From the NCBI RefSeq assembly GCF_002843605.1, contig NZ_CP025263.1, forward strand, positions 5,113,501-5,177,500: a DNA stretch of 64,000 nucleotides, given 5' to 3'. Positions 2,622 through 16,314 of this stretch are shown piece by piece; the first letter of the stretch is position 1, and every line of letters starts with the position of its first letter. The DNA comes from Pseudomonas sp. S09G 359. GTDB lineage: Bacteria; Pseudomonadota; Gammaproteobacteria; Pseudomonadales; Pseudomonadaceae. Below the pieces are notes generated by a model. That model was given only the letters and a program-made list of their open reading frames with translations. It made no database searches and was not told the origin of the DNA. The position numbers and the translations under genes were made by a program.

Positions 2622-4046
2622 CTAAAGGTGAAACCTGCCCCCACCCTGCCCCAGCGCCGTCGCCAACGCATCAAACCCCGCCCGCAACAGCTGATCATCC
2701 CCCGACGTATTGCAGATACTCGCGCGGATAAACTGCGGCACCGCCGTTTGCCCCACGGCAAAAGCCTCGGCGGTGGCGATCAGGTAATTGCTCTGCTTGA
2801 GTTCCGCCTCAATTTCCGACGCGCGCCACGGCTCCGGCACTTCGATCCAAAAGTGCGGGCTGTTCAGGTGGGTGCGGTATTCCAGGCCGGCCAGCAGGCC
2901 CTGCACCAGGGCCTTGCGGCGGCTGATCTCGTTGATCTGCTGGCGCAACAGATACTCCGCCGTGCCGTTTTCGATCCACTGGGTGGCCAACTCCAAGGTC
3001 ACCGGTGTGGCCATCCAACAGGTGGAGCGCAACGCCGCCGAGATCCGGCTGACCAATGCCGATGGCGCATGCACGTAGCCCACACGCAGCCCGGCGGACA
3101 CCGCCTTGCTCAAGCTGCTGATCAAAATCGTACGCTCAGGGGCGAAATGGCTGAGGGGCGGCGGGCGGTCTTCGACCAATACGCCGTGGGCTTCGTCCTC
3201 AAGAATCAGCAGATTATGTTCCCGACACACTTTCACCAGGGCCTCACGGCGCGCCACCGATAACACCGCCGTGGTCGGGTTCTGGATAGTCGGCGTGCAA
3301 TACAGCGCCGACACCCGGTGATTGCGACAAACCTCATCCAGCGCACCCGGCAGTACGCCTTCCTCGTCCATCTCCAGGCCGATCAGGCGTATACCGAGCA
3401 TGCGCGCGGCGGTTATCAACCCGGGGTAAGTCAGTTGCTCGGTGACCACCGTATCGCCGGCGCGCAGCAACGCCATCATCGCGCAAAGCAGGCCATGCTG
3501 GCCGCCATTCACGCAAATGACTTGCTCGGGGATCGGATGAAAGTCCCGCTGTACCAGCCATTGCGCACCCGCATCGCGGTAGCGCGGCAAGCCGGCATCC
3601 GGGGTGTAGGCGCTGATGTCCTGGAGGAACTTGGCGTTGGTCGACAGGGTTTGGAAGCTCTGGGCCAGGAAAGTGGTTTCCTGCCCCGGGATATGCATGT
3701 TGCGGCTCATGTCGAAGTACTGGCGCGGCTCCTCGCTGAAATTGCGAAAACCTTCGTCGCGCTGGCGCTCCATCCCACGTTTGCGCACGAAAGTGCCGTC
3801 ACCTACCCGAGCCACCACCAACCCCAGGCGTTCCAGCTCGCCGTAGGCCCGGCTGATGGTGCCGATGGTCACGCCCAGATTGTCGGAAAGCACCCGATGG
3901 GGCGGCAGTTTTCTTCCGGGTTCAATCAAGCCTTCGAGGATGCCCCGTTCCATGACATCGGACAGGCGCTTGTACTTAACGCCCTGCCCGCTGGACAACC
4001 CCTCACGCATAATTGACACCATGTCAATATTTGTTTTGACAGCCAT
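2622..4046 (-). CDS. MocR-type regulator (GntR HTH fused to aminotransferase fold)
   Basis: Predicted PLP-dependent transcription regulator of 474 residues. A winged HTH of GntR type occupies about residues 25-90 (RLSDVMERGI...GVTIGTISRAYGELE). A class I aminotransferase-like domain follows, with the PLP lysine in SSLSK (K314), TPTIQNPTT at 251-259 and an EDEAHG aspartate near 284. The ATG at 4046 is preceded by AGGG. It diverges from the EamA exporter at 4150 across a 103-base gap holding direct repeats, so it probably controls the exporter and the sulfur genes behind it, and may sense an amino acid through PLP. The effector cannot be read from sequence. Confidence 0.88.
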   Translation of the reverse strand: MAVKTNIDMVSIMREGLSSGQGVKYKRLSDVMERGILEGLIEPGRKLPPHRVLSDNLGVTIGTISRAYGELERLGLVVARVGDGTFVRKRGMERQRDEGFRNFSEEPRQYFDMSRNMHIPGQETTFLAQSFQTLSTNAKFLQDISAYTPDAGLPRYRDAGAQWLVQRDFHPIPEQVICVNGGQHGLLCAMMALLRAGDTVVTEQLTYPGLITAARMLGIRLIGLEMDEEGVLPGALDEVCRNHRVSALYCTPTIQNPTTAVLSVARREALVKVCREHNLLILEDEAHGVLVEDRPPPLSHFAPERTILISSLSKAVSAGLRVGYVHAPSALVSRISAALRSTCWMATPVTLELATQWIENGTAEYLLRQQINEISRRKALVQGLLAGLEYRTHLNSPHFWIEVPEPWRASEIEAELKQSNYLIATAEAFAVGQTAVPQFIRASICNTSGDDQLLRAGFDALATALGQGGGRFHL

Positions 4047-4149: not shown

Positions 4150-5100
4150 ATGCCAATGTCCGCCGTTCTCGAAAACACCGCCAAAACAAAAAGCCAAAAA
4201 CAGTGGTTGGCCGGGCTGGTCACCAGTGTGATGTTCCTGATCGTGTGCCTGAGTTGGGGCACCACGTGGCTGGGTATCAAGATTGCCGTGGAGAGCGTGC
4301 CGCCACTGACGTCCGCCGGCCTGCGCTTTCTGATCGCCTTCCCGCTGTTCCTGTGTTTTGCCCTGGTGCGCCGCGAGCCGATCGTGTTTCCACGGGAGAG
4401 CCGCTGGTTCTTCGTGTTCGTGACCCTGTCTTACTTCAGCGTTCCGTATTACCTGCTCAACTATGGCGAGATGCATGTGTCGTCCGGCCTCACCGCCCTG
4501 CTATTCAGCTGCATGCCGGTGTTTATCCTGATTTTTTCCGCGCTGTTTCTGCGCGAGCGCATCTACTTCTCCCAAGTGGTCGGCATCGGTATCGGTTTCG
4601 GCAGCCTCTACATGATCATCCGCAGCCAGGGCCTGCACCTGGATCACGCTGAGTTCTTCGGCGTGCTGGCGATTCTGACGGCCGCGATCATGCACGCCTT
4701 GTGCTACGTGATCACCAAGCAAAAAGGCAGCGCTATCAGCGTGATCACCTACAACACCCTGCCCATCGGCATTGCCGGGTTGATGCTGTTCGTGGCCGGC
4801 CTGTGGTTTGAAACACCCACCTTCGAAAACATCACCCTGCGGTCCTGGAGCGCTCTGTTTTACCTGGGGCTGGTGGCTTCGGTGGGCGGGTTTATCGTGT
4901 ATTTCATGCTGCTCAAGCGTTTGAGCCCGATCATCCTTTCATTTGTCTTCATCATCTTCCCGGTGTTCGCGGTGATCATCGGCGCCTGGTACGAAGGCGT
5001 GGCGATTTCCCGCGACCTGATGCTGTATTCGGCCATCCTGCTGGCCGGTTTTGCGATCACCAAGTTGCCGATTGAAAAACTCCTGGCCAAGAAAAATTGA
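4150..5100 (+). CDS. EamA/DMT-family exporter
   Basis: Inner-membrane protein of 316 residues with about ten hydrophobic segments and the duplicated EamA domain (SWGTTWLGIKIAVE in the first half, YVITKQKGSA leading into the second). The family exports amino acids and metabolites; E. coli EamA exports O-acetylserine and cysteine. The ATG at 4150 has GGAAG nine bases upstream. It is the first gene of a same-strand run (exporter, JAMM-E1 fusion, cysteine synthase-like, serine acetyltransferase, AlaX), so a product of that run is the likely substrate. Family is sure, substrate is inference. Confidence 0.88.
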   Translation: MPMSAVLENTAKTKSQKQWLAGLVTSVMFLIVCLSWGTTWLGIKIAVESVPPLTSAGLRFLIAFPLFLCFALVRREPIVFPRESRWFFVFVTLSYFSVPYYLLNYGEMHVSSGLTALLFSCMPVFILIFSALFLRERIYFSQVVGIGIGFGSLYMIIRSQGLHLDHAEFFGVLAILTAAIMHALCYVITKQKGSAISVITYNTLPIGIAGLMLFVAGLWFETPTFENITLRSWSALFYLGLVASVGGFIVYFMLLKRLSPIILSFVFIIFPVFAVIIGAWYEGVAISRDLMLYSAILLAGFAITKLPIEKLLAKKN

Positions 5101-5126: not shown

Positions 5127-6989
5127 ATGGACGTCCTCCGCCCCACCGCCCTGGAACAGATCTACGCCCACGCCAGCCGCAGCTACCCCGAGGAATGCTG
5201 TGGTTTTGTCTTCGCCGACGGCAGTGTGTACCTGGGCAGCAATATCCAGAACGAGTTGCACCGCAAGAACCCCGAGATGTACCCGCGCACCGCCGCCAAC
5301 GGCTACACGTTCTCGGTGGCCGACACGCTGCTGATGAACAAGGCGTTGCGCAGCGACAATCCGGTGGTGGTGATCTACCACTCCCACCCCGATGTCGGCG
5401 CGTACTTCAGCGAAGAAGACCAGGACAAGGCGCTGTTCATGGGCGAGCCGATCTACCCCGTCAGCTATCTGGTGGTAGACGTTCGCCAGGGCCAGGCCCT
5501 GGGCTCAAAGCTGTTTGCCTGGGATGGCCAGTATTTCGCCCTTCAACCCTTCAACGACCTGCACACGGAGTTGTCCATGAACGCTGTCTCTTTCCCTGAC
5601 ATTCTGGTTCGCGTGGCCAAGCTGCCGGAATCGACCCTCGAGGGCACTGGATCGACATTGCGCGAAGTCATTGAAAACCTCTGCAGCAGCCATCCGCAGT
5701 TACGCCCGCACCTGTTTCATGAAAACAACAACCAGCTCAAGGAACACTTCCTGTTCACCGCCGAGGAAGAGCTGATCAGCGCCGACGACCGGCTACCGGA
5801 AAAAGCCCGGATCGAAGTGCTGCTCGCCACCTCCGGCGGCATGGATGTCGATGCGCTGAGCAATGAAGAAATACAACGCTACGTACGCCACATCACCCTG
5901 CCCGGCGTCGGTCGCGAGGGCCAGTTGAACCTCAAGAAAGCCAAGGTGCTGATCATCGGTACCGGCGGCCTGGGCTCGCCGATCAGCCTGTACCTGGCGG
6001 CGGCTGGTGTCGGCACCCTGGGCCTGGTGGATTTCGATGTGGTAGAGAGCAGCAACCTGCAACGCCAGATCGTCCACGGCAACAGCACCCTCGGCATGCC
6101 CAAGGTTGACTCCGCCAAGCAGCGCCTGCACGACCTCAATGCGCATATCCAGATCAACGCCCACAACACCGCCTTGAATGCCGATAACGCCTTGGAGCTG
6201 GTGGGCGCCTACGACCTGGTGATCGACGGCACCGACAATTTCGACACCCGCTACCAGGTCAACGACGCCTGCGTGCAGCTGGGTAAACCGCTGGTGTACG
6301 GCGCCATCTACCGTTTCGACGGGCAGATCAGCGTGCTCAACTATAAAGGTGGGCCGTGCTATCGCTGCCTGTTCCCCAGCGCGCCACCGGCGGAACTGGC
6401 GCCCAATTGCAGCGCGGGCGGGGTGATCGGCGTGCTGCCCGGCGTGGTCGGGATGATCCAGGCCACCGAGGCGATCAAATTGCTGATCGGCATCGGTGAA
6501 CCCCTGTCCGGGCGCTTGATGCGCTTCGATGCGCTGGCGATGAAGTTCAGCGAAATCCGCTTCAAGCGCCGCGCCGACTGCCCGTGCTGCTCCGAGCTGC
6601 GCCACAGCGAAACCCTGGCCCCGGCCGCCTGCGCGGATGCCGTGCCGAACCGGCCGATGCTGGCCGAAGAGCGCTACATCAAGCCGCGGGTGCTCAAGCA
6701 ATTGCTCGACCACCCGCGCAGCGCTGACGTGCTGCTGGACGTACGTGATGCCAGCGAACTGGAAGTGTGCAAATTGCCAGGCGTGGTGCATATCCCCCTG
6801 GCCGAACTCGACGGTCAGCTCGACAGCCTCAGCCGGGATAACACCCACTACCTGATCTGCTATGCCGGCACCCGCGCCGAGCAAGCCGCCAGCACCTTGC
6901 TGGCAGCAGGCTTCGCCAACACCAAAGTCCTGCAGGGCGGCATGAAACACTGGGTTCGCGACGTCGAACCCGACATGCCTTTGTATTGA
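5127..6989 (+). CDS. JAMM protease - MoaD/ThiS-like carrier - E1 (MoeB/ThiF) - rhodanese fusion
   Basis: A 620-residue multidomain protein for sulfur activation and transfer. Residues 1-150 are a JAMM/Mec-like metalloprotease with a full motif: E22/E23, then HSHP with H85 and H87, S95 and D98. Residues about 152-238 look like a beta-grasp sulfur carrier ending IEVLLATSGG, with the diglycine at 237-238 inside the chain. Residues 245-490 are an E1-like adenylyltransferase: GTGGLGS (278-284), the SNLQRQ arginine (R313), zinc pairs CYRC (411-414) and CPCC (485-488), and the transfer cysteine C428. Residues 515-620 are a rhodanese with active-site loop CYAGTR (C578). The ATG at 5127 follows GAGAGA. 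In mycobacteria CysO, MoeZ and Mec are separate proteins; here they form one chain. The carrier needs a free C-terminal GG, so cleavage by its own JAMM domain is plausible. Confidence 0.9.
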   Translation: MDVLRPTALEQIYAHASRSYPEECCGFVFADGSVYLGSNIQNELHRKNPEMYPRTAANGYTFSVADTLLMNKALRSDNPVVVIYHSHPDVGAYFSEEDQDKALFMGEPIYPVSYLVVDVRQGQALGSKLFAWDGQYFALQPFNDLHTELSMNAVSFPDILVRVAKLPESTLEGTGSTLREVIENLCSSHPQLRPHLFHENNNQLKEHFLFTAEEELISADDRLPEKARIEVLLATSGGMDVDALSNEEIQRYVRHITLPGVGREGQLNLKKAKVLIIGTGGLGSPISLYLAAAGVGTLGLVDFDVVESSNLQRQIVHGNSTLGMPKVDSAKQRLHDLNAHIQINAHNTALNADNALELVGAYDLVIDGTDNFDTRYQVNDACVQLGKPLVYGAIYRFDGQISVLNYKGGPCYRCLFPSAPPAELAPNCSAGGVIGVLPGVVGMIQATEAIKLLIGIGEPLSGRLMRFDALAMKFSEIRFKRRADCPCCSELRHSETLAPAACADAVPNRPMLAEERYIKPRVLKQLLDHPRSADVLLDVRDASELEVCKLPGVVHIPLAELDGQLDSLSRDNTHYLICYAGTRAEQAASTLLAAGFANTKVLQGGMKHWVRDVEPDMPLY

Positions 6990-7001: not shown

Positions 7002-7919
7002 ATGATGTTGCATAACTCCATTCTCGAGGTGATCGGCCACACGCCGATCGTGCGCCTGGCACAGTTTTCCGAAGACCTCGGCATCGAGGTCTACGCCAAG
7101 CTTGAATCCCTCAACCCCGGCGGCAGCCACAAGGCGCGCATCGCCTTGGGCATGATCCTCGACGCCGAACGCCGCGGCGTGTTGATCCGAGATTCCGGGC
7201 AAACCATCATCGAACCCAGCGGCGGCAATACCGGCATCGGCCTGGTGATGGCGGGCAACGTGCTGGGCTACAAAGTGGTGCTGGTAATCCCCGATAACTA
7301 CAGCCCGGAGAAACAGAAGCTGCTGCGCCTGTACGGCGCCAAGGTGGTGCTGTCGGACAGCCGCCTCGGTAACAATTCCCACGGTGAAAAGTGCATGGAA
7401 CTGCAGCTGGAAAACCCCAGCTACGTAATGCTCAACCAGCAACGCAACGGCGCCAACCCGCAAACCCATCGCGACACTACCGCGCCGGAAATCATCCGCG
7501 CCTTTGGGGATCTGCGCGTGGACTACTTCGTCAGCGGCATCGGCACCGGCGGGCATATCACCGGCATCGGCGAAACCCTGAAGGCCAACTGGCCGGCCAT
7601 CCGTGTGATGGGCGTGGAGCCGGAAGAATGCGACCTGCTGAAAAACCAGCACGCGCCCCACCATATCCAGGGCCTGTCGATCGGCCTGATCCCGAGCATC
7701 CTCAACCTGGACGTGATCGACGGCATGCTCAAGGTCTCGCGCCAGGCGTGCATCGACATGATGAAACGCATCATGCGCACCGACGCCATCAGCCTGGGCC
7801 TGTCCTCCGCCGCCAACATGGTGGCCATCGCCCAGCTCGCCCCCGAATTGCCGCCTGAAACGGTGGTGTTGACCATGGTTTACGACAATGCCGACAGCTA
7901 CCTGCCCAGTTTCGAATAG
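7002..7919 (+). CDS. PLP-dependent cysteine synthase family protein (CysK/CysM-like)
   Basis: Fold-type II PLP enzyme of 305 residues. The PLP lysine is K44 in NPGGSHKAR; the phosphate/substrate loops are PSGGNTGIGL and GIGTGGHITG, and the C-terminal serine loop is LSSAANM. Relatives make cysteine from O-acetylserine or O-phosphoserine; CysM of mycobacteria uses the thiocarboxylate of CysO as sulfur donor. The start is ATGATG at 7002/7005 after GAGGG, 12 bases behind the JAMM-E1 gene. The context suggests it takes sulfur from the carrier and O-acetylserine from the next gene. NPGGSHKAR differs from the usual NPSGSVKDR, so the substrate may not be the standard one. Confidence 0.88.
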   Translation: MMLHNSILEVIGHTPIVRLAQFSEDLGIEVYAKLESLNPGGSHKARIALGMILDAERRGVLIRDSGQTIIEPSGGNTGIGLVMAGNVLGYKVVLVIPDNYSPEKQKLLRLYGAKVVLSDSRLGNNSHGEKCMELQLENPSYVMLNQQRNGANPQTHRDTTAPEIIRAFGDLRVDYFVSGIGTGGHITGIGETLKANWPAIRVMGVEPEECDLLKNQHAPHHIQGLSIGLIPSILNLDVIDGMLKVSRQACIDMMKRIMRTDAISLGLSSAANMVAIAQLAPELPPETVVLTMVYDNADSYLPSFE

Positions 7920-7956
7920 GCGGTTTCCCAACCATCCAGAATGCGGGGGTGCCTCC

Positions 7957-8949
7957 ATGGGGGGCTTTATCGACATGCAACAGCTGCACGATGAGTTGCT
8001 CACCCACCTCATCAAAACCCTCACGCCCGCGCAGATGAAACAGCTGGAACCGCACCTGGCGCCGCTGATCCAGAACGCCGCACAGGCGGTGGCCGAGGAT
8101 TTGATCGCCTATACCTATCGCGACCCGGCCTCACGCGGGCGCGGCGAGCTGATCCTGGAGTCCTACGCTTCGTTTAAGGCCGTCTTGTTCTACCGCCTGG
8201 CGCATCTGGTGTGGAATTTCCCGGATCGGGTCAACGGTGTGTTTTCGCGTATCGCCCTGAAGCTGAGCAACCAGGGCAAGGTGCTCTCCGGCGCCGAGAT
8301 CCACCCGGCGGCGCGCATCGGCCGGCGCTTTGTGCTGGACCACGGCTACGGCACGGTAATCGGCGAAACCTGCGAGATCGGCAACGACTGCTACATCCTC
8401 TGCGGCGTGACGCTCGGCGCCCGCGGCATCGCCAACAACCCCGACGGCAAGCGCCACCCGCGGCTGGGCAACAATGTCGAAGTCGGTTCCGGCGCCCGCG
8501 TGCTGGGCTATGTGCTGATTGGCGACAACGTGTTTATCAGCCCGTCCTGCGTGATCACCCAGGATGTGCCCGCCGGCACCAAGGTGAAGGTGGTGAACCA
8601 GATCCAACTGCAAAAAAATCATGAGTCGGACCACAGCAACTACCTCGGCGCGTTTGCCTTGGATGAGCGCTTGCATGTGGTCGGCGAGGTCAACGCCAGC
8701 CACAAGGTCACCGTGCTGGACGCTGACTTCCACCCCCTGCCGGGTTTGATGCTGGAGCCGACGGTAAAGGAACGTCACCACCTGCAATTTCGCCTGCACC
8801 GCGTCGAACCGGGCAACTATCTGCCGCGCTTGCCGCTGAACCTCAAGGTCTGCGGCCCGGAATTTGAAATCACCCTGCTCTCCCCACCTGGCTTGAGCGC
8901 AATGGTGCGTTCGCTGCTGCAAGCCAGCCCCATGAACGTCGGAGGTTGA
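7957..8949 (+). CDS. Serine O-acetyltransferase with C-terminal extension
   Basis: Acetylates serine to O-acetylserine. Of 330 residues, about 1-110 are the helical N-domain. Hexapeptide repeats span about 112-218 with the catalytic pair in LDHGYG (D128, H129), then GETCEIG and RHPRLGN (H167). After VVNQIQLQKN (about 220) there is a further 110-residue domain that I do not recognise; it replaces the short feedback tail of CysE and ends MNVGG. The ATG at 7957 follows a G-rich stretch; the reading frame is open back into the cysteine synthase-like gene, and ATG 7975 is an alternative. The gene is translationally close to both neighbours. Confidence 0.88.
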   Translation: MGGFIDMQQLHDELLTHLIKTLTPAQMKQLEPHLAPLIQNAAQAVAEDLIAYTYRDPASRGRGELILESYASFKAVLFYRLAHLVWNFPDRVNGVFSRIALKLSNQGKVLSGAEIHPAARIGRRFVLDHGYGTVIGETCEIGNDCYILCGVTLGARGIANNPDGKRHPRLGNNVEVGSGARVLGYVLIGDNVFISPSCVITQDVPAGTKVKVVNQIQLQKNHESDHSNYLGAFALDERLHVVGEVNASHKVTVLDADFHPLPGLMLEPTVKERHHLQFRLHRVEPGNYLPRLPLNLKVCGPEFEITLLSPPGLSAMVRSLLQASPMNVGG

Positions 8950-8951
8950 AC

Positions 8952-9680
8952 ATGTCTGTGCATACCATGGAAACCCTGGCGCTGTTCGACAGCGCGCCCT
9001 ACCAAAATGCATTCAGCGCCCGGGTGATTGCCGTCAGCGAACACGGCATCGCCCTGGAGCACACGCTGTTCTATCCCACCGGCGGCGGCCAGCCGGGCGA
9101 CACCGGCCACTTCACCCTGGCCGACGGTACTCGGGTAGACGTGACTGGCACGGTGCGCGACGCGCTGTCGCGTTCGATCATCTGGCACCAGGTGGAACAC
9201 TGCCCTGAACAGTTAACCGCGGGGGTGCAACTGGAGGCCGGCATTGACTGGGCACGCCGCTACCAGCACATGAAAATGCACACCTGCCTGCACTTGCTGT
9301 GTTCGATCATCGACGCACCGGTAACCGGTTGCAGCATCAGCGCCGATAAAGGCCGGCTGGATTTCGACCTGCCGGAAATGACCCTGGACAAGGACACGCT
9401 CACCCGTGATCTCAACGCGCTGATCGCACAGGCCCACGAGGTAAAAACCTTGTCGATGCCCGCGTCGGAATACACCACCCTGCTGCAGATCACCCGCACC
9501 CAGGCGGTTGCGCCGCCGGTGATCCAAGGCTCGGTACGCGTGATTGAAATTGGCGGGATCGATATCCAGCCGTGCGGCGGCACCCATGTGCTGAACACCG
9601 AGGAGATCGGCCGGGTGTTTTGCGAGAAAATCGAGAAAAAGAGCAAGCATAACCGTCGGGTGATTTTGCGCTTCGCGTAA
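8952..9680 (+). CDS. AlaX-type alanyl-tRNA editing protein
   Basis: Stand-alone relative of the AlaRS editing domain, which removes wrong amino acids from tRNA. The 242 residues carry both zinc signatures: HTCLH (H110, H114) and CGGTH (C208, H212), plus the N-terminal YPTGGGQPGDTG loop. The ATG at 8952 has GGAGG at 8941-8945, inside the end of the acetyltransferase gene, so the two are coupled; an upstream TTG at 8946 is unlikely. As last gene of the sulfur run it may clear tRNA misacylated by serine or by an unusual amino acid made here. That role is inference. Confidence 0.88.
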   Translation: MSVHTMETLALFDSAPYQNAFSARVIAVSEHGIALEHTLFYPTGGGQPGDTGHFTLADGTRVDVTGTVRDALSRSIIWHQVEHCPEQLTAGVQLEAGIDWARRYQHMKMHTCLHLLCSIIDAPVTGCSISADKGRLDFDLPEMTLDKDTLTRDLNALIAQAHEVKTLSMPASEYTTLLQITRTQAVAPPVIQGSVRVIEIGGIDIQPCGGTHVLNTEEIGRVFCEKIEKKSKHNRRVILRFA

Positions 9681-10837: not shown

Positions 10838-12322
10838 TCAGACTACAAACATGTCCACAAAACGGTTAACGGGTGTGGCCTCAAGCCGCTCCTGATCCTT
10901 GCACAACGCAAATATCTCGGCGCTGTGCTGGGCGGTAAACCGCGTGGCCAGGTTGGCCTTGAACTTGTCTTCCAGCAACGGGATGCCGTCCACCCGGCGC
11001 CGACGATGGCCAATCGGGTATTCCACCGCCACCGGCTCGGTGCGGGTGCCGTCCTTGAAGAACACCTGCACCGCGTTGGCGATGGAGCGCTTGTCGGCTT
11101 CCAGGTATTCGCGGCTGTAGCGAGGGTCTTCGACAATCACCATTTTGTCGCGCAGCTGATCGATGATCGGGTGGGCGGCGTGGAATTCATCCTCGTAGTG
11201 CTCGGCCACCAGGTTGCCGAAAGCCAGGGGTACGGCAGTCATGTATTGCAGGCAATGATCGCGGTCGGCAGCGTTGGCCAGTTGGCCGACCTTGGAGATG
11301 ATGCGGATCGCCGACTCATGGGTAGTGATCACGATGCGCTCGATCTCATCCAGGCGGTGCTTCACCAGCGGGTGCAAGGTCACCGCCGCCTCGCAGGCGG
11401 TTTGCGCGTGAAACTCGGCGGGAAAGCTGATCTTGAACAGCACGTTTTCCATCACATAGGTGCCGTAGGGCTGTGACAGGCTGAACGCGCGTTTGTCTGC
11501 GGGCTTGAGGGCCAGGTCCTTGTTGGTGTGGCTGAACAGCACGTCATAAAAGCCCCATTGCGGCGCACTCAGCACACCGGGGATGCCCATCTCGCCACGC
11601 AGGGCGATGTCCGCCAGGCGTACGCCACGGCTCGACGCATCCCCCGCCGCCCAGGATTTGCGCGAGCCCGCGTTCGGCGCATGTCGATAGGTGCGCAAGG
11701 CCTGGCCATCGACAAACGCGTGAGACAGCGCCGCCAGCAACTGTTCGCGGTTGGCGCCCATCAGCTTGGCCGTGACCGCCGTGGAGGCGACTTTCACCAG
11801 CAGCACATGGTCGAGGCCGACACGGTTGAAGGAGTTTTCCAGGGCGATTACGCCCTGGATTTCATGGGCCATGATCATCGCTTCCAGCACTGCGCGCACG
11901 GTCAGCGGCGCATCGCCATTGGCCACGCGTTTTTGCGAAAGGTGATCGGCCACGGCGAGGATGCCGCCGAGGTTATCCGAGGGGTGGCCCCATTCAGCGG
12001 CGAGCCAGGTGTCGTTGTAGTCGAGCCAGCGCACGATACAGCCGATGTCCCAGGCGGCCTTGACCGGGTCCAACCGGAAGGAGGTGCCCGGCACGCGCGC
12101 ACCGAACGGCACCACCGTGCCCTCCACCAGCGGCCCCAGGTGCTTGGTGCACTCGGGGAAACGCAGGGCCAGCAAACCGCAACCGAGGGTGTCCATCAGG
12201 CAGTTGCGCGCGGTGTCCAATGCGGCCTGGGAATCGATGCGGTAATTAAGGACGTAGTCGGCGATGTCCTGCAAAACCTGGTCGTATTCGGGGCGGTTGT
12301 TCTGGTCGACGTTGGCGCTCAT
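10838..12322 (-). CDS. prpD: 2-methylcitrate dehydratase
   Basis: MmgE/PrpD family enzyme of the methylcitrate cycle that dehydrates 2-methylcitrate. The 494 residues match the usual length, and stretches such as [20 protein letters not shown] and [14 protein letters not shown] are characteristic. The ATG at 12322 follows GGAGTAACTGCC. It is the last gene of the leftward prp operon, separated from prpF by about 195 bases with a REPIN. Since acnD and prpF together can do the same overall step, prpD provides a second route, as in other pseudomonads. Confidence 0.95.
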
Positions 12323-12411
12323 GGCAGTTACTCCTAAAAGGTTGGGTTAGTCCTCAGAATCACGGTTGCTGGAAGCAGATCTTGAGTGTCTGCCTTGGAA
12401 TAAAGATCACC

Positions 12412-12499
12412 TGTGGGAGCGGGCTGGCTCGCGAAGGCGGTGTATCAGGTACTGAAATGTCACTGACCCACCGCATTCGCGAGCAAGCCCGCTCCCACA
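12412..12499. repeat. REPIN
   Basis: TGTGGGAGCGGGCTGGCTCGCGA and the inverted CGCGAGCAAGCCCGCTCCCACA lie in the prpF-prpD gap. Inside an operon such a pair could change mRNA stability or limit prpD expression. Confidence 0.9.
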
Positions 12500-12517
12500 T
12501 TGGTGCGGAGTTGAACC

Positions 12518-13708
12518 TTAGAAAGCGTCGCCCGGGATGCGCACGAAGCCTTCCATCAACACCCGCGCACTGCGGCTCATGATGGCTTTTTTCACCACCC
12601 ATTCGCCGTTGACCTGGGTGGCTTCGGCGCCGACACGCAAGGTCCCGGAGGGATGCCCGAACCGCACGGCGTTACGCTCCACACCACCGGCCGCGAGATT
12701 GACCAGAGTTCCGGAAATCGCCGCCGCCGTGCCGATCGCCACCGCCGCCGTGCCCATCATCGCGTGGTGCAGCTTGCCCATGGACAGCGCGCGCACCAGC
12801 AGGTCGACGTCGGCAGCCTTGATCGCCTTGCCGCTGGACGCCACGTAATCCGCGGGCTTGGCCACAAACGCGACCTTCGGTGTGTGCTGACGCTGGGCGG
12901 CCTCGTCCAGGTGCTTGATCAGGCCCATGCGCAACGCGCCATACGCCCGTACGGTTTCGAACATGGCCAGGGCTTTCGGGTCGCTGTTGATCGCGCCTTG
13001 CAGCTCGGTGCCGGTGTAGCCGAGGTCTTCGGCGTTGATAAAAATCGTCGGGATGCCCGCGTTGATCAGCGTGGCCTTGAAGGTGCCGACGCCGGGCAAT
13101 TCCAGGTCGTCGACCAGATTGCCGGTGGGAAACATCGACCCGCCGCCGCCCTCTTCTTCCGCCGCTGGGTCGATGAATACCAGCTGCACTTCGGCGGCCG
13201 GAAAGGTCACGCCGTCGAGTTCGAAGTCACCGGTTTCCTGCACCGCCCCATCGGTGATCGGCACGTGGGCGATGATGGTCTTGCCGATATTGGCCTGCCA
13301 GACCCGCACCACAGCCACGCCGTTGTGGGGTATGCGGGCCGGGTCGACCAGCCCTGCGCTGACGGCGAACGAACCCACCGCCGCCGACAGGTTGCCGCAA
13401 TTGCCGCTCCAGTCCACAAAGGGCTTGTCGATGGAAACCTGGCCAAACAAGTAGTCCACGTCGTGATCGGCGCGGGTGCTTTTGGCGAGAATCACGCTTT
13501 TGCTGGTGCTCGACGTCGCGCCGCCCATGCCGTCGATCTGTTTGTCATAGGGGTCGGGGCTGCCGATCACCCGCAGCAACAGGGCATCGCGTGCGGCGCC
13601 CGGGACCTGCGCCGCAGCGGGCAGGTCCTGGAGGCTGAAAAAGACGCCCTTGCTGGTGCCGCCACGCATGTAAGTGGCGGCGATCTTGATTTGCGGTGCG
13701 TGTGCCAT
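12518..13708 (-). CDS. prpF: 2-methylaconitate cis-trans isomerase
   Basis: AcnD-accessory protein that isomerises the 2-methylaconitate isomer made by AcnD. The 396 residues begin MAHAPQIKIAATYMRGGTS, the family start; the ATG at 13708 has AGAGGA upstream. The fold is of diaminopimelate-epimerase type, and the glycine-rich GNCGNLSAAVG region holds the family cysteine. It starts 11 bases after acnD, so the two are co-translated. Confidence 0.94.
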   Translation of the reverse strand: MAHAPQIKIAATYMRGGTSKGVFFSLQDLPAAAQVPGAARDALLLRVIGSPDPYDKQIDGMGGATSSTSKSVILAKSTRADHDVDYLFGQVSIDKPFVDWSGNCGNLSAAVGSFAVSAGLVDPARIPHNGVAVVRVWQANIGKTIIAHVPITDGAVQETGDFELDGVTFPAAEVQLVFIDPAAEEEGGGGSMFPTGNLVDDLELPGVGTFKATLINAGIPTIFINAEDLGYTGTELQGAINSDPKALAMFETVRAYGALRMGLIKHLDEAAQRQHTPKVAFVAKPADYVASSGKAIKAADVDLLVRALSMGKLHHAMMGTAAVAIGTAAAISGTLVNLAAGGVERNAVRFGHPSGTLRVGAEATQVNGEWVVKKAIMSRSARVLMEGFVRIPGDAF

Positions 13709-13719
13709 GGTTGTCCTCT

Positions 13720-16314
13720 TCAAGCGGTCGCCGCCGATTCCAGGAAGTCCTGGGCAAAACGTTGCAACACGCCGCCCGCCTCGTAGATCGACACTTCTTC
13801 GGCAGTGTCGAGGCGGCAGGTCACCGGCACTTCGACACGTTCGCCATTCTTGCGGTTGATCACCAGGGTCAACTGCGCACGCGGGGTGCGTTCGCCGACC
13901 ACGTCATAGGTTTCGCTGCCGTCGATCTGCAAGGTGTGGCGATCGGTGCCGGGCAAAAACTCCAGGGGCAACACGCCCATGCCCACCAGGTTGGTGCGGT
14001 GGATGCGCTCGAAACCTTCGGCGGCAATCGCTTCCACACCGGCCAGGCGCACGCCCTTGGCCGCCCAGTCGCGGGAGGAACCCTGGCCGTAGTCGGCGCC
14101 GGCGATGATGATCAACGGCTGCTTGCGTTCCATGTAGGTTTCGATGGCTTCCCACATCCGCGTGACCTGGCCTTCCGGCTCGATCCGCGCCAGGGAACCC
14201 TGCTTGACCTTGCCGTTTTCCAGCACCATTTCGTTGAACAGTTTCGGGTTGGCGAAAGTGGCGCGTTGCGCGGTCAAGTGGTCACCCCGGTGAGTCGCGT
14301 AGGAGTTGAAGTCGACTTCCGGCAGGCCCATTTTCGCCAGGTATTCGCCGGCGGCGCTGTCGAGCATGATCGCGTTGGACGGCGACAGGTGGTCAGTGGT
14401 GATGTTGTCCGGCAGCACCGCCAGCGGGCGCATGCCCTTGAGCGGCCGCGCACCGGCCAGCGCGCCTTCCCAGTACGGCGGGCGGCGGATGTAGGTGCTT
14501 TGCGGGCGCCAGTCATACAGCGGAGTAACCTTGGGGCCGGTGTCTTCGTGAATCGCGAACATCGGGATATACACCGCACGGAACTGCTCCGGTTTCACCG
14601 AGGCCTTGACCACGGCGTCGATCTCTTCGTCGCTCGGCCAGATGTCTTGCAGGCGGATTTCCTTGCCGTTGGCGTCGAGGCCCAGCACGTCCTTTTCGAT
14701 GTCGAAACGGATGGTGCCGGCAATCGCGTAGGCCACTATCAACGGCGGCGAGGCCAGGAACGCTTGCTTGGCGTACGGGTGAATACGCCCGTCGAAGTTG
14801 CGGTTGCCCGAGAGCACGGCGGTGGCGTACAGGTCGCGGTCGATGATTTCCTGTTGGATCACCGGGTCGAGCGCGCCGGACATGCCGTTGCAGGTGGTGC
14901 AGGCAAATGCCACCACGCCGAAGCCGAGTTTTTCCAGCTCATGGCCCAGGCCCGCTTCTTCGAGGTACATGGCCACGGTTTTCGAACCCGGTGCCAGGGA
15001 CGACTTGACCCACGGCTTGCGCGTCAACCCGAGCTTGTTGGCGTTACGCGCCAGCAGGCCAGCGGCGATCACGTTGCGCGGGTTGCTGGTATTGGTGCAA
15101 CTGGTGATGGCGGCGATGATCACCGCGCCGTCGGGCATTTGCCCCGGCACGTCGTCCCACTGGCCGCTGATGCCCTTGGACGCCAGGTCGCTGGTCGCCA
15201 CGCGGGCATGCGGGTTGCTCGGGCCGGCCATGTTGCGCACGACGCTGGACAGGTCGAAGGTGAGGCCGCGCTCATATTGCGCGCCTTTGAGGTCATCGGC
15301 CCACAGGCCGGTATGGCGGGCGTATTGCTCCACCAAGGCGACTTGCTCGTCTTCGCGGCCAGTGAGTTTCAGGTAGGCGATGGTCTGCTGGTCGATGTAG
15401 AACATCGCCGCCGTGGCGCCGTATTCCGGGGCCATGTTGGAGATGGTCGCGCGGTCGCCCAGGGTCAGGGCCGAGGCCCCCTCGCCGAAGAACTCCAACC
15501 AGGCGCCAACCACTTTCTGTTTACGCAGGAATTCGGTCAGCGCCAGCACCATGTCGGTGGCAGTGATGCCCGGCAGCAATTTACCCGTCAGCTCCACGCC
15601 GACGCTTTCCGGCAGGCGCATCCACGACGCACGGCCGAGCATCACGCTCTCGGCTTCGAGGCCGCCGACGCCGATAGCGATCACGCCCAGGGCATCCACG
15701 TGCGGCGTGTGGCTGTCGGTGCCGACGCAGGTATCGGGGAAGGCCACACCATCACGCACCTGGATCACCGGGGACATTTTCTCCAGGTTGATCTGGTGCA
15801 TGATGCCGTTGCCCGGCGGGATCACGTCGACGTTCTTGAAGGCCTTTTTGGTCCACTCGATAAAGTGGAAACGGTCTTCGTTGCGACGGTCTTCGATGGC
15901 GCGGTTTTTCTCGAATGCCTGCGGGTCGAAACCACCGGCTTCGACGGCCAGGGAATGGTCGACGATCAATTGGGTCGGCACCACCGGGTTGACCTGCGCC
16001 GGGTCGCCGCCTTGCAGGGCGATAGCGTCGCGCAGGCCGGCGAGGTCGACCAGGGCGGTCTGGCCGAGGATGTCGTGGCACACCACGCGCGCCGGGAACC
16101 AAGGAAAGTCGAGGTCGCGTTTGCGTTCGATCAACTGGCTCAGGGAGGCGTTGAGGGTGGCCGGGTCGCAACGGCGCACCAGGTTTTCGGCGAGCACGCG
16201 GGAGGTGTAGGGCAACGTGGCGTAGGCGCCGGGGGTGATGGCTTCGACAGCCGCGCGGGCGTCGAAGTAATCCAGGCGGCTGCCGGGGAGCGGTTTGCGG
16301 AATTCAGTGTTCAT
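13720..16314 (-). CDS. acnD: Fe/S-dependent 2-methylisocitrate dehydratase
   Basis: Aconitase-like enzyme of 864 residues that dehydrates 2-methylcitrate to 2-methylaconitate. It has 4Fe-4S ligand motifs AITSCTNTSNP and FACTTCNGMSG, and the C-terminal swivel domain with GSSRDWAAKG. The start ATG at 16314 (MNTEFRKPLPGSRLDYFDAR) fits the family; the longer open frame only translates a REP sequence. It lies between prpC and prpF. The opposite strand carries a 908-residue open frame, a shadow caused by high GC. Confidence 0.95.
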   Translation of the reverse strand: MNTEFRKPLPGSRLDYFDARAAVEAITPGAYATLPYTSRVLAENLVRRCDPATLNASLSQLIERKRDLDFPWFPARVVCHDILGQTALVDLAGLRDAIALQGGDPAQVNPVVPTQLIVDHSLAVEAGGFDPQAFEKNRAIEDRRNEDRFHFIEWTKKAFKNVDVIPPGNGIMHQINLEKMSPVIQVRDGVAFPDTCVGTDSHTPHVDALGVIAIGVGGLEAESVMLGRASWMRLPESVGVELTGKLLPGITATDMVLALTEFLRKQKVVGAWLEFFGEGASALTLGDRATISNMAPEYGATAAMFYIDQQTIAYLKLTGREDEQVALVEQYARHTGLWADDLKGAQYERGLTFDLSSVVRNMAGPSNPHARVATSDLASKGISGQWDDVPGQMPDGAVIIAAITSCTNTSNPRNVIAAGLLARNANKLGLTRKPWVKSSLAPGSKTVAMYLEEAGLGHELEKLGFGVVAFACTTCNGMSGALDPVIQQEIIDRDLYATAVLSGNRNFDGRIHPYAKQAFLASPPLIVAYAIAGTIRFDIEKDVLGLDANGKEIRLQDIWPSDEEIDAVVKASVKPEQFRAVYIPMFAIHEDTGPKVTPLYDWRPQSTYIRRPPYWEGALAGARPLKGMRPLAVLPDNITTDHLSPSNAIMLDSAAGEYLAKMGLPEVDFNSYATHRGDHLTAQRATFANPKLFNEMVLENGKVKQGSLARIEPEGQVTRMWEAIETYMERKQPLIIIAGADYGQGSSRDWAAKGVRLAGVEAIAAEGFERIHRTNLVGMGVLPLEFLPGTDRHTLQIDGSETYDVVGERTPRAQLTLVINRKNGERVEVPVTCRLDTAEEVSIYEAGGVLQRFAQDFLESAATA

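Follow-up and report, generated by a model that had tools for sequence, protein, structure and literature searches.

To carry a thiocarboxylate, a carrier requires a free C-terminal glycine, as work on CysO and MoaD has established. JAB, carrier and E1-rhodanese parts are combined, in Pseudomonas too, in the PDTC and quinolobactin clusters (PdtFGH; the Qbs names belong to the quinolobactin cluster). In the CysO-CysM-Mec-MoeZ pathway of mycobacteria, a beta-grasp carrier ending in Gly-Gly (GG), an E1-rhodanese, a JAMM peptidase and a PLP-dependent beta-replacement enzyme are separate proteins, and the carrier C-terminus is free. The chemistry of CysO, CysM and Mec, including release of the product from CysO by Mec, is described in the accessible part of PMC3227635. 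Carriers with GG inside a longer chain, freed by cleavage, are represented by MoaX (M. tuberculosis) and MoaD-MoaE (Deinococcus), in both of which the carrier is fused to MoaE and the protease is separate. According to the accessible text, the cut in MoaX lies between Gly82 and Ser83 and is required for its work, the protease being left unnamed there (PMC4326299), and DRJAMM cuts MoaD-MoaE to leave a C-terminal Gly (PMC8832034). The initial annotation of the DNA analyzed here had pointed to fused JAMM/ThiS/E1 arrangements from comparative genomics, and this precedent proved looser than worded: in the accessible parts of Iyer 2006 (PMC1779556), JAB is fused to E1 in bacterial ubiquitin-like operons (rows 6a-6e), never together with a rhodanese and with no ThiS-type carrier described in the chain, and the JAB of the operon class with an E1-rhodanese and a sulfur carrier is termed stand-alone. 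The same source places P. aeruginosa among the organisms with operons for a ThiS/MoaD-like protein, an E1-rhodanese, a JAB protein and a cysteine synthase, and lists a CaiB-like CoA transferase with an AMP ligase for the PDTC/quinolobactin clusters (row 4a); Pfam found neither in the six operon proteins scanned here.

The P. aeruginosa genes PA2100-PA2106 share the gene order of the present locus by published annotation, their orthology being a matter of annotation alone: a regulator bound by a PLP probe, an EamA protein, a Mov34/MPN protein, MoeB, a cysteine synthase, an acetyltransferase and an AlaS-domain protein (accessible parts of PMC9431628, PMC9866376 and PMC13256707). There, JAMM and MoeB are separate genes, unlike the fused gene described below. 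In the available portions of the respective studies, PA2100 was enriched by a pyridoxal probe (PMC9321722), and PA2101-PA2104 and PA2106 rose 2.2- to 4.3-fold after 15 minutes of rpoH induction. N-acetylcysteine raised PA2100-PA2103 (log2 values of 0.7, 1.7, 1.2 and 0.8, respectively); this induction was considered as a link to cysteine and set aside, the authors having read it mainly as zinc starvation, and PA2100-PA2103 are not marked as Zur regulon in the part of that study available. Neither a description of the four-part gene nor a functional study joining protein-borne sulfur, amino-acid export and tRNA editing was found in the literature searched, a search in which most subscription papers and figures lay outside the scope.

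The window analyzed here is a stretch of 64,000 nucleotides from Pseudomonas sp. S09G 359 (contig NZ_CP025263.1, positions 5,113,501 to 5,177,500), and its features of interest are as follows (window coordinates, strand, description and basis).

2622..4046, minus strand: MocR-type regulator, divergent, with GntR DNA-binding and aminotransferase-like domains (Pfam GntR, Aminotran_1_2)
4150..5100, plus strand: EamA-family exporter (Pfam EamA; 80 of 80 loci)
5127..6989, plus strand: four-part gene JAMM-sulfur carrier-E1-rhodanese, 620 aa (Pfam, translation, alignment)
5148..5480, plus strand: predicted JAMM/Prok-JAB protease domain, residues 8-118 (Pfam; conserved E23, H85, H87, S95, D98)
5553..5576, plus strand: linker, residues 143-150, the former intergenic spacer, holding a GGAG ribosome-binding motif (alignment of fused and split DNA)
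5577..5579, plus strand: conserved internal ATG (Met151), where the former carrier-E1-rhodanese gene began (alignment, codon counts)
5577..5840, plus strand: predicted beta-grasp sulfur carrier, residues 151-238, ending ATSGG (ThiS score, profiles, model)
5835..5840, plus strand: internal diglycine G237-G238, cut predicted after G238 (alignment)
5880..6587, plus strand: E1-type adenylyltransferase, ThiF/MoeB fold, residues 252-487, with C428 (Pfam, solved relatives, alignment)
6690..6959, plus strand: rhodanese domain, residues 522-611, with C578 (Pfam; C578 in 21 of 21 rows)
7002..7919, plus strand: cysteine-synthase-like PLP enzyme with altered active-site loops (Pfam, NCBIfam, solved relatives, loop comparison)
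7888..8949, plus strand: serine acetyltransferase-like protein with a C-terminal extension (TIGR01172 below cut-off; mechanical ORF, start may lie downstream)
8946..9680, plus strand: AlaX-type alanyl-tRNA editing protein (Pfam tRNA_SAD; NCBIfam AlaXM below cut-off)

The frame at 5127-6989 (plus strand) was intact and stop-free over its 620 codons, and Pfam on the full chain assigned Prok-JAB to residues 8-118 (60.5 bits, cut-off 25), ThiF to residues 252-487 (273.8 bits, cut-off 28.1) and Rhodanese to residues 522-611 (53.8 bits, cut-off 22.2). Together with the carrier model described below, this bore out the reading of JAMM, sulfur carrier, E1 and rhodanese in one chain made by the initial annotation, whose HSHP at 85, FSEED at 94, C428, C578 and ATSGG at 234-238 all stood at the positions it had given. 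The JAMM motif is defined by a Glu plus an HxH-x7-S-x2-D set; the domain carried this set, with E23, H85, H87, S95 and D98 invariant in all 21 rows that covered the region in a 35-sequence alignment (a selection from the loci at hand), and is predicted to be a zinc-dependent peptidase. C428 and C578 were each kept in 21 of 21 rows, and putative zinc cysteines of the E1 part in 19 of 21 (C411/C414) and 19 of 19 (C485/C488). A ThiF domain followed by a C-terminal rhodanese, both with their active-site cysteines, is the MoeZ/MOCS3-type layout. The best solved relatives of the E1 part were MoeB, ThiF and Uba4; it missed the NCBIfam equivalog cut-offs for MoeB/MoeZ and passed the MoeB subfamily model PRK05690. 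By pLDDT, the full-chain model was confident in its E1 and rhodanese parts, fair over the carrier and poor over the JAMM domain (ten-residue means of 35-63), and values below 50 at residues 140-150, 235-260 and 493-509 resembled those of flexible linkers. Elsewhere in the genome of the window there were two other ThiS-family matches, further ThiF-family genes and a single other Prok-JAB match, a JAB plus NlpC/P60 protein of phage-tail type (L080 1042-1914; G000:C1:3630332-3630634).

Recognition of the carrier depended on isolating it. Pfam on the full chain did not name it, a genome-wide search with the ThiS model did not report it, and cut out as residues 151-238 it scored 23.3 bits with ThiS, barely over the cut-off of 22.5. 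The AlphaFold model of this piece (mean pLDDT 90.7) matched SAMP1 (3po0) and two CysO structures, that of M. tuberculosis (3dwg) and, from the BexX complex, that of Amycolatopsis (4n6e), at TM-scores of about 0.78-0.83; the segment, called carrier-like at the outset, is thus predicted by the model to have a beta-grasp fold, with SAMP1 and CysO as its top matches. A profile that included free and distant carriers aligned with CysO end to end, GG on GG (E 7.6e-22), and a profile built from Pseudomonas and Vreelandella carriers only matched a solved carrier weakly (E 0.004).

ThiS/MoaD carriers have a free C-terminal GG; here GG was internal, at residues 237-238, and would become terminal only after cleavage. 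It was invariant in 58 of 58 equal-length fused genes, and both glycines were kept in all 22 rows of the wider alignment covering the region, while position 239, directly after it, drifted among M, I, L, V, A and E. The internal GG lined up with the C-terminal GG of free carriers from six other clusters of the genus (three of them 90-codon frames, three at the end of longer mechanical frames), in which the GG-ending carrier is its own protein, unlike the four-part gene, and it was also seen in the split-locus carriers aligned, including L078 and L079; some carriers in this alignment of free and split forms had been shortened by slicing. The six free carriers (L092-L097) end in AVAGG and lie beside E1-rhodanese and JAB-like genes, and L092, the one checked by Pfam, also holds a Prok-JAB protein, a CoA-transferase family III protein and a class-III aminotransferase protein. 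Because pLDDT fell below 50 at residues 235-260, GG probably sits in an exposed and flexible tail. Two other accounts of the junction were discarded. An internal start at Met239, in place of cleavage, would use an ATG that was present in 43 of 58 genes and never (0 of 58) preceded by a Shine-Dalgarno (SD)-like motif. In G176, what resembled a natural un-fusion at the diglycine was a broken copy, in which a small deletion had destroyed GG and shifted the frame. At L088 (2452-4342), the copy with its small deletion at the diglycine stood in an operon intact in all other parts.

Occurrence of the gene was followed in two overlapping sets. In the reference-genome scan, the best 79 distinct loci out of 151 confirmed stretches comprised 64 with an intact four-part gene, 3 with an interrupted one (L059, L060 and L074, excluded from all residue and codon counts) and 12 with a separate JAMM gene. 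In the genus sample, 45 of 298 genomes, that of the window included, had an uninterrupted full-length match, with the gene interrupted in two genomes (G176, G286) and split in two (G148, G028); one genus-sample stretch, L089, apparently comes from the same contig as L059. As 64 of 79 loci and 45 of 298 genus genomes carried the uninterrupted gene, it is not a chance product. In a class-wide search of 369 genomes, two passed E 1e-110, namely the window's own and G572 (residues 235-617 only), and this sample held no further four-part gene. The species names of the carriers of the fused gene presumably point to the P. fluorescens group.

In the 12 split loci, a JAMM gene of 139-161 codons stood immediately upstream of one of 470-481 codons for carrier, E1 and rhodanese; with L090 and L091 added, the two genes adjoined in 14 of 14 split loci, a count to be read with the selection of the best-matching 79 loci in mind, which favors loci having JAMM. 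Nine of the 12 were from Pseudomonas or Vreelandella and three from Acidobacteriota or Planctomycetota (L077-L079). Since split loci reach such distant phyla, the carrier-E1 fusion with its internal GG appears to be widespread, and the JAMM fusion appears confined, within the genomes sampled, to part of Pseudomonas. In a quick maximum-likelihood tree (midpoint-rooted, without L051), the 64 fused rows all fell on one side of a single branch (SH-aLRT 90) and had the split strains PS723 and PS691 (L062, L070) as neighbors, a topology consistent with one fusion in Pseudomonas that joined a JAMM gene to a carrier-E1-rhodanese gene. The initial description as one chain was correct for the four-part gene and incomplete for the system, the two genes being still separate in sister strains and a second product being implied by the junction.

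At that junction, the fused genes retained the spacer of the split loci, together with its GGAG and the ATG of the second gene. GGAG preceded the ATG of Met151 in 65 of 65 intact fused genes (64 of 64, and then L051, which had been omitted from the tree and the first start-site count and was read separately, with motif and ATG present). In the 58 equal-length genes used for codon tables (seven intact genes of other length were left out), codon 148 was GAG and codon 151 ATG in all 58, codon 149 was TTG in 56, and codon 147 ended in G throughout, even where the residue changed (ACG 54, GCG 2, ATG 2); the gene-wide shares of GAG, ACG and TTG within their own amino acids were 0.40, 0.14 and 0.17, respectively. 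Among the 11 internal Met codons shared by over half of the genes, an SD-like motif was conserved at Met151 only (58 of 58, and at most 4 of 58 at the others), and codons 145-156 had the lowest synonymous diversity of 52 bins. The low diversity spanned about codons 130-180, wider than a start site alone would need, and the crude SD rule found the gene's own start in only 1 of 65 genes, which marks the limit of the rule. A permutation test on codons 144-165 gave 0 of 20,000, on a range picked after inspection, and counts for less than the binned minimum and the SD comparison. Codons 169-183 (window 5631-5675), inside the carrier, formed another stretch poor in synonymous variation. Because the internal GGAG and ATG are conserved, translation probably still starts at Met151 and yields a JAMM-less carrier-E1-rhodanese of 470 residues; given such a product, cutting would be possible in trans as well as in cis.

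The surrounding operon, absent from the initial annotation, bears on what the sulfur is for. Genes for EamA, JAMM, carrier, E1, rhodanese, the cysteine-synthase-like enzyme, the acetyltransferase and AlaX lay on one strand within about 5.5 kb in 80 of 80 loci (76 of the reference-scan loci plus L088-L091), with a divergent MocR relative in 78 of them; the other two, L088 and L091, are short stretches. In L077-L079 a cysteine synthase lay upstream instead, and a search of these three loci for the acetyltransferase and AlaX gave no match. The partner enzyme in the operon missed the NCBIfam cut-offs of cysM (221.7 against 394.2 bits), cysKM (299.2 against 344.15) and cysK, and neither 3dwg nor a chain named cysteine synthase B was among the best 60 of its 145 solved relatives, so that it does not classify as the CysM-type partner of the CysO-CysM-Mec pathway. 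Its loops read SHKAR, PSGGNTG and QRN, against SVKDR, PTSGNTG and QFEN in cysteine synthase, and they were shared by four split Pseudomonas or Vreelandella relatives, two of them with one substitution (SHKTR or SHKVR); by its sequence, the enzyme may act on a substrate other than the usual one. With the cysK, cysM and cysKM cut-offs missed and the loops non-standard, cysteine may not be the product. The genome also holds, elsewhere, two other cysteine synthases and one CysE over curated cut-offs, so a further route to cysteine is not obviously needed.

AlaX was also encountered apart from the sulfur block. In G011 and G105, the same chromosomal site held MocR, EamA and AlaX only, the block being absent (L103 6425-9640, L108 6068-9246), between relatives of the window genes at 1552-2475 and 10838-13723, which we take to be PpsR, PrpD and PrpF. 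Of 119 genomes of the genus sample, 18 had AlaX: 15 with the fused gene, one with the split form and these two with the reduced operon. Among three more distant AlaX loci, MocR stood beside AlaX, and divergent from it, in two (L104 7484-9750 and L106 150-3857); one of these two also had a LysE-type exporter two genes away in the run. The third, L105, had AlaX with neither MocR nor EamA, a contrary context. Because MocR-EamA-AlaX and other MocR-AlaX loci exist without the block, the setting appears to be mostly one of amino-acid export and tRNA editing, into which the sulfur block is a removable insert.

The locus is a clade-wide fusion of CysO/Mec/MoeZ-like relay parts that places GG within the chain and conserves an internal start, and self-processing is the best inference from it. 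Domains, conserved residues, the grouping of fused genes, the operon and the conserved internal start motif were read directly from the DNA; cleavage, thiocarboxylate chemistry, the product and use of the internal start are what we infer. Our preferred reading, to which as a whole pathway we assign a probability of about 0.6, is an all-in-one version of such a sulfur-carrier relay. The JAMM domain, in cis or in trans, would cut after G238 and free the diglycine end, which the E1 domain would adenylate with ATP and a persulfide on Cys578 of the rhodanese would convert to a thiocarboxylate. The cysteine-synthase-like neighbor would form aminoacrylate from activated serine supplied by the serine acetyltransferase, and the carrier thiocarboxylate would donate its sulfur to this aminoacrylate, with cysteine, as in the CysO-CysM-Mec pathway, a candidate product. 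JAMM would then hydrolyze the carrier-amino acid adduct and recycle the carrier (by analogy with Mec and CysO, one JAMM may thus both free the carrier and release its product), the EamA protein would export the product, and AlaX would clear mischarged tRNA(Ala). The four-part gene itself would have arisen from a JAMM gene and a carrier-E1-rhodanese gene, whose old start is probably still in use. Compared with CysO-CysM-Mec-MoeZ, the parts here are in one gene, the partner falls below the CysM cut-off with altered loops, and a serine acetyltransferase is in the operon; compared with MoaX and MoaD-MoaE, protease and substrate share a chain.

The proposed freeing of the carrier through a JAMM cut after G238 has good support in the predicted beta-grasp fold, the invariant GG beside a drifting position 239, the adjoining JAMM gene in 14 of 14 split loci, the NlpC/P60 type of the only other Prok-JAB protein in the genome, and the precedents of MoaX and DRJAMM. 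The initial annotation proposed that the chain cuts itself; we keep the predicted cut after G238, though not its restriction to cis, as the Met151 start would also permit cutting in trans. A version acting in trans only, in which fusion merely sets the ratio of JAMM to carrier and the internally started 470-residue product is the main source of E1, is in keeping with JAMM being a separate protein in every split locus and with the conserved internal start; against it, the fused chain may well be cut in cis too and the short form is itself a predicted product, and we regard this version as possible and somewhat unlikely. That the diglycine is vestigial, the chain stays uncut and the carrier part only aids folding or docking seems improbable: cutting is indirectly argued and a carrier-E1 fusion is tolerated in distant phyla (L077-L079), but GG did not vary in 58 of 58 fused genes or in any of the 22 wider rows, next to a drifting position 239, and JAMM goes with the carrier-E1-rhodanese copies read. 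Attachment of the carrier to proteins, as in ubiquitin-like systems, is suggested by JAMM, E1 and the SAMP1-like fold, yet the rhodanese, the cysteine-synthase-like enzyme and the serine acetyltransferase point to small-molecule sulfur transfer, and Pfam and NCBIfam found no E2-like domain in the six operon proteins scanned; we consider conjugation very improbable indeed.

The product could be an exported unusual sulfur amino acid in place of cysteine, with EamA as its exporter and AlaX clearing tRNA(Ala) charged with the product or with serine. Such a product would suit the AlaX gene that follows the sulfur block in 80 of 80 loci, the altered loops common to the four split relatives, the MocR-EamA-AlaX operon without the block in two genomes together with the divergent MocR beside AlaX in two distant loci, and the other cysteine synthases and CysE of the genome. 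Against it, the operon lacks an extra tailoring enzyme, cysteine would be the simplest compound for these parts to make, EamA proteins export cysteine and O-acetylserine too, and the fifth AlaX context, L105, has neither MocR nor EamA; on balance this product is possible and somewhat unlikely. More speculative still is the combined picture of a nested two-product gene, giving a self-cutting chain and, from an internal start that selection has maintained ever since the fusion, a JAMM-less carrier-E1-rhodanese. This gene would lie at the center of a plug-in sulfur block, inserted in an operon for amino-acid export and tRNA editing, whose sulfur amino acid is secreted and prevented by AlaX from entering the cell's own proteins.

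If one gene does provide the carrier together with its releasing protease and its charging enzymes, then cutting, charging and recycling could be studied with one construct, clean point mutants would be usable, and the split sister strains would provide a natural control. The operon ties protein-borne sulfur to amino-acid export and tRNA editing, and supplies hypotheses that can be tested on PA2100-PA2106 of P. aeruginosa.
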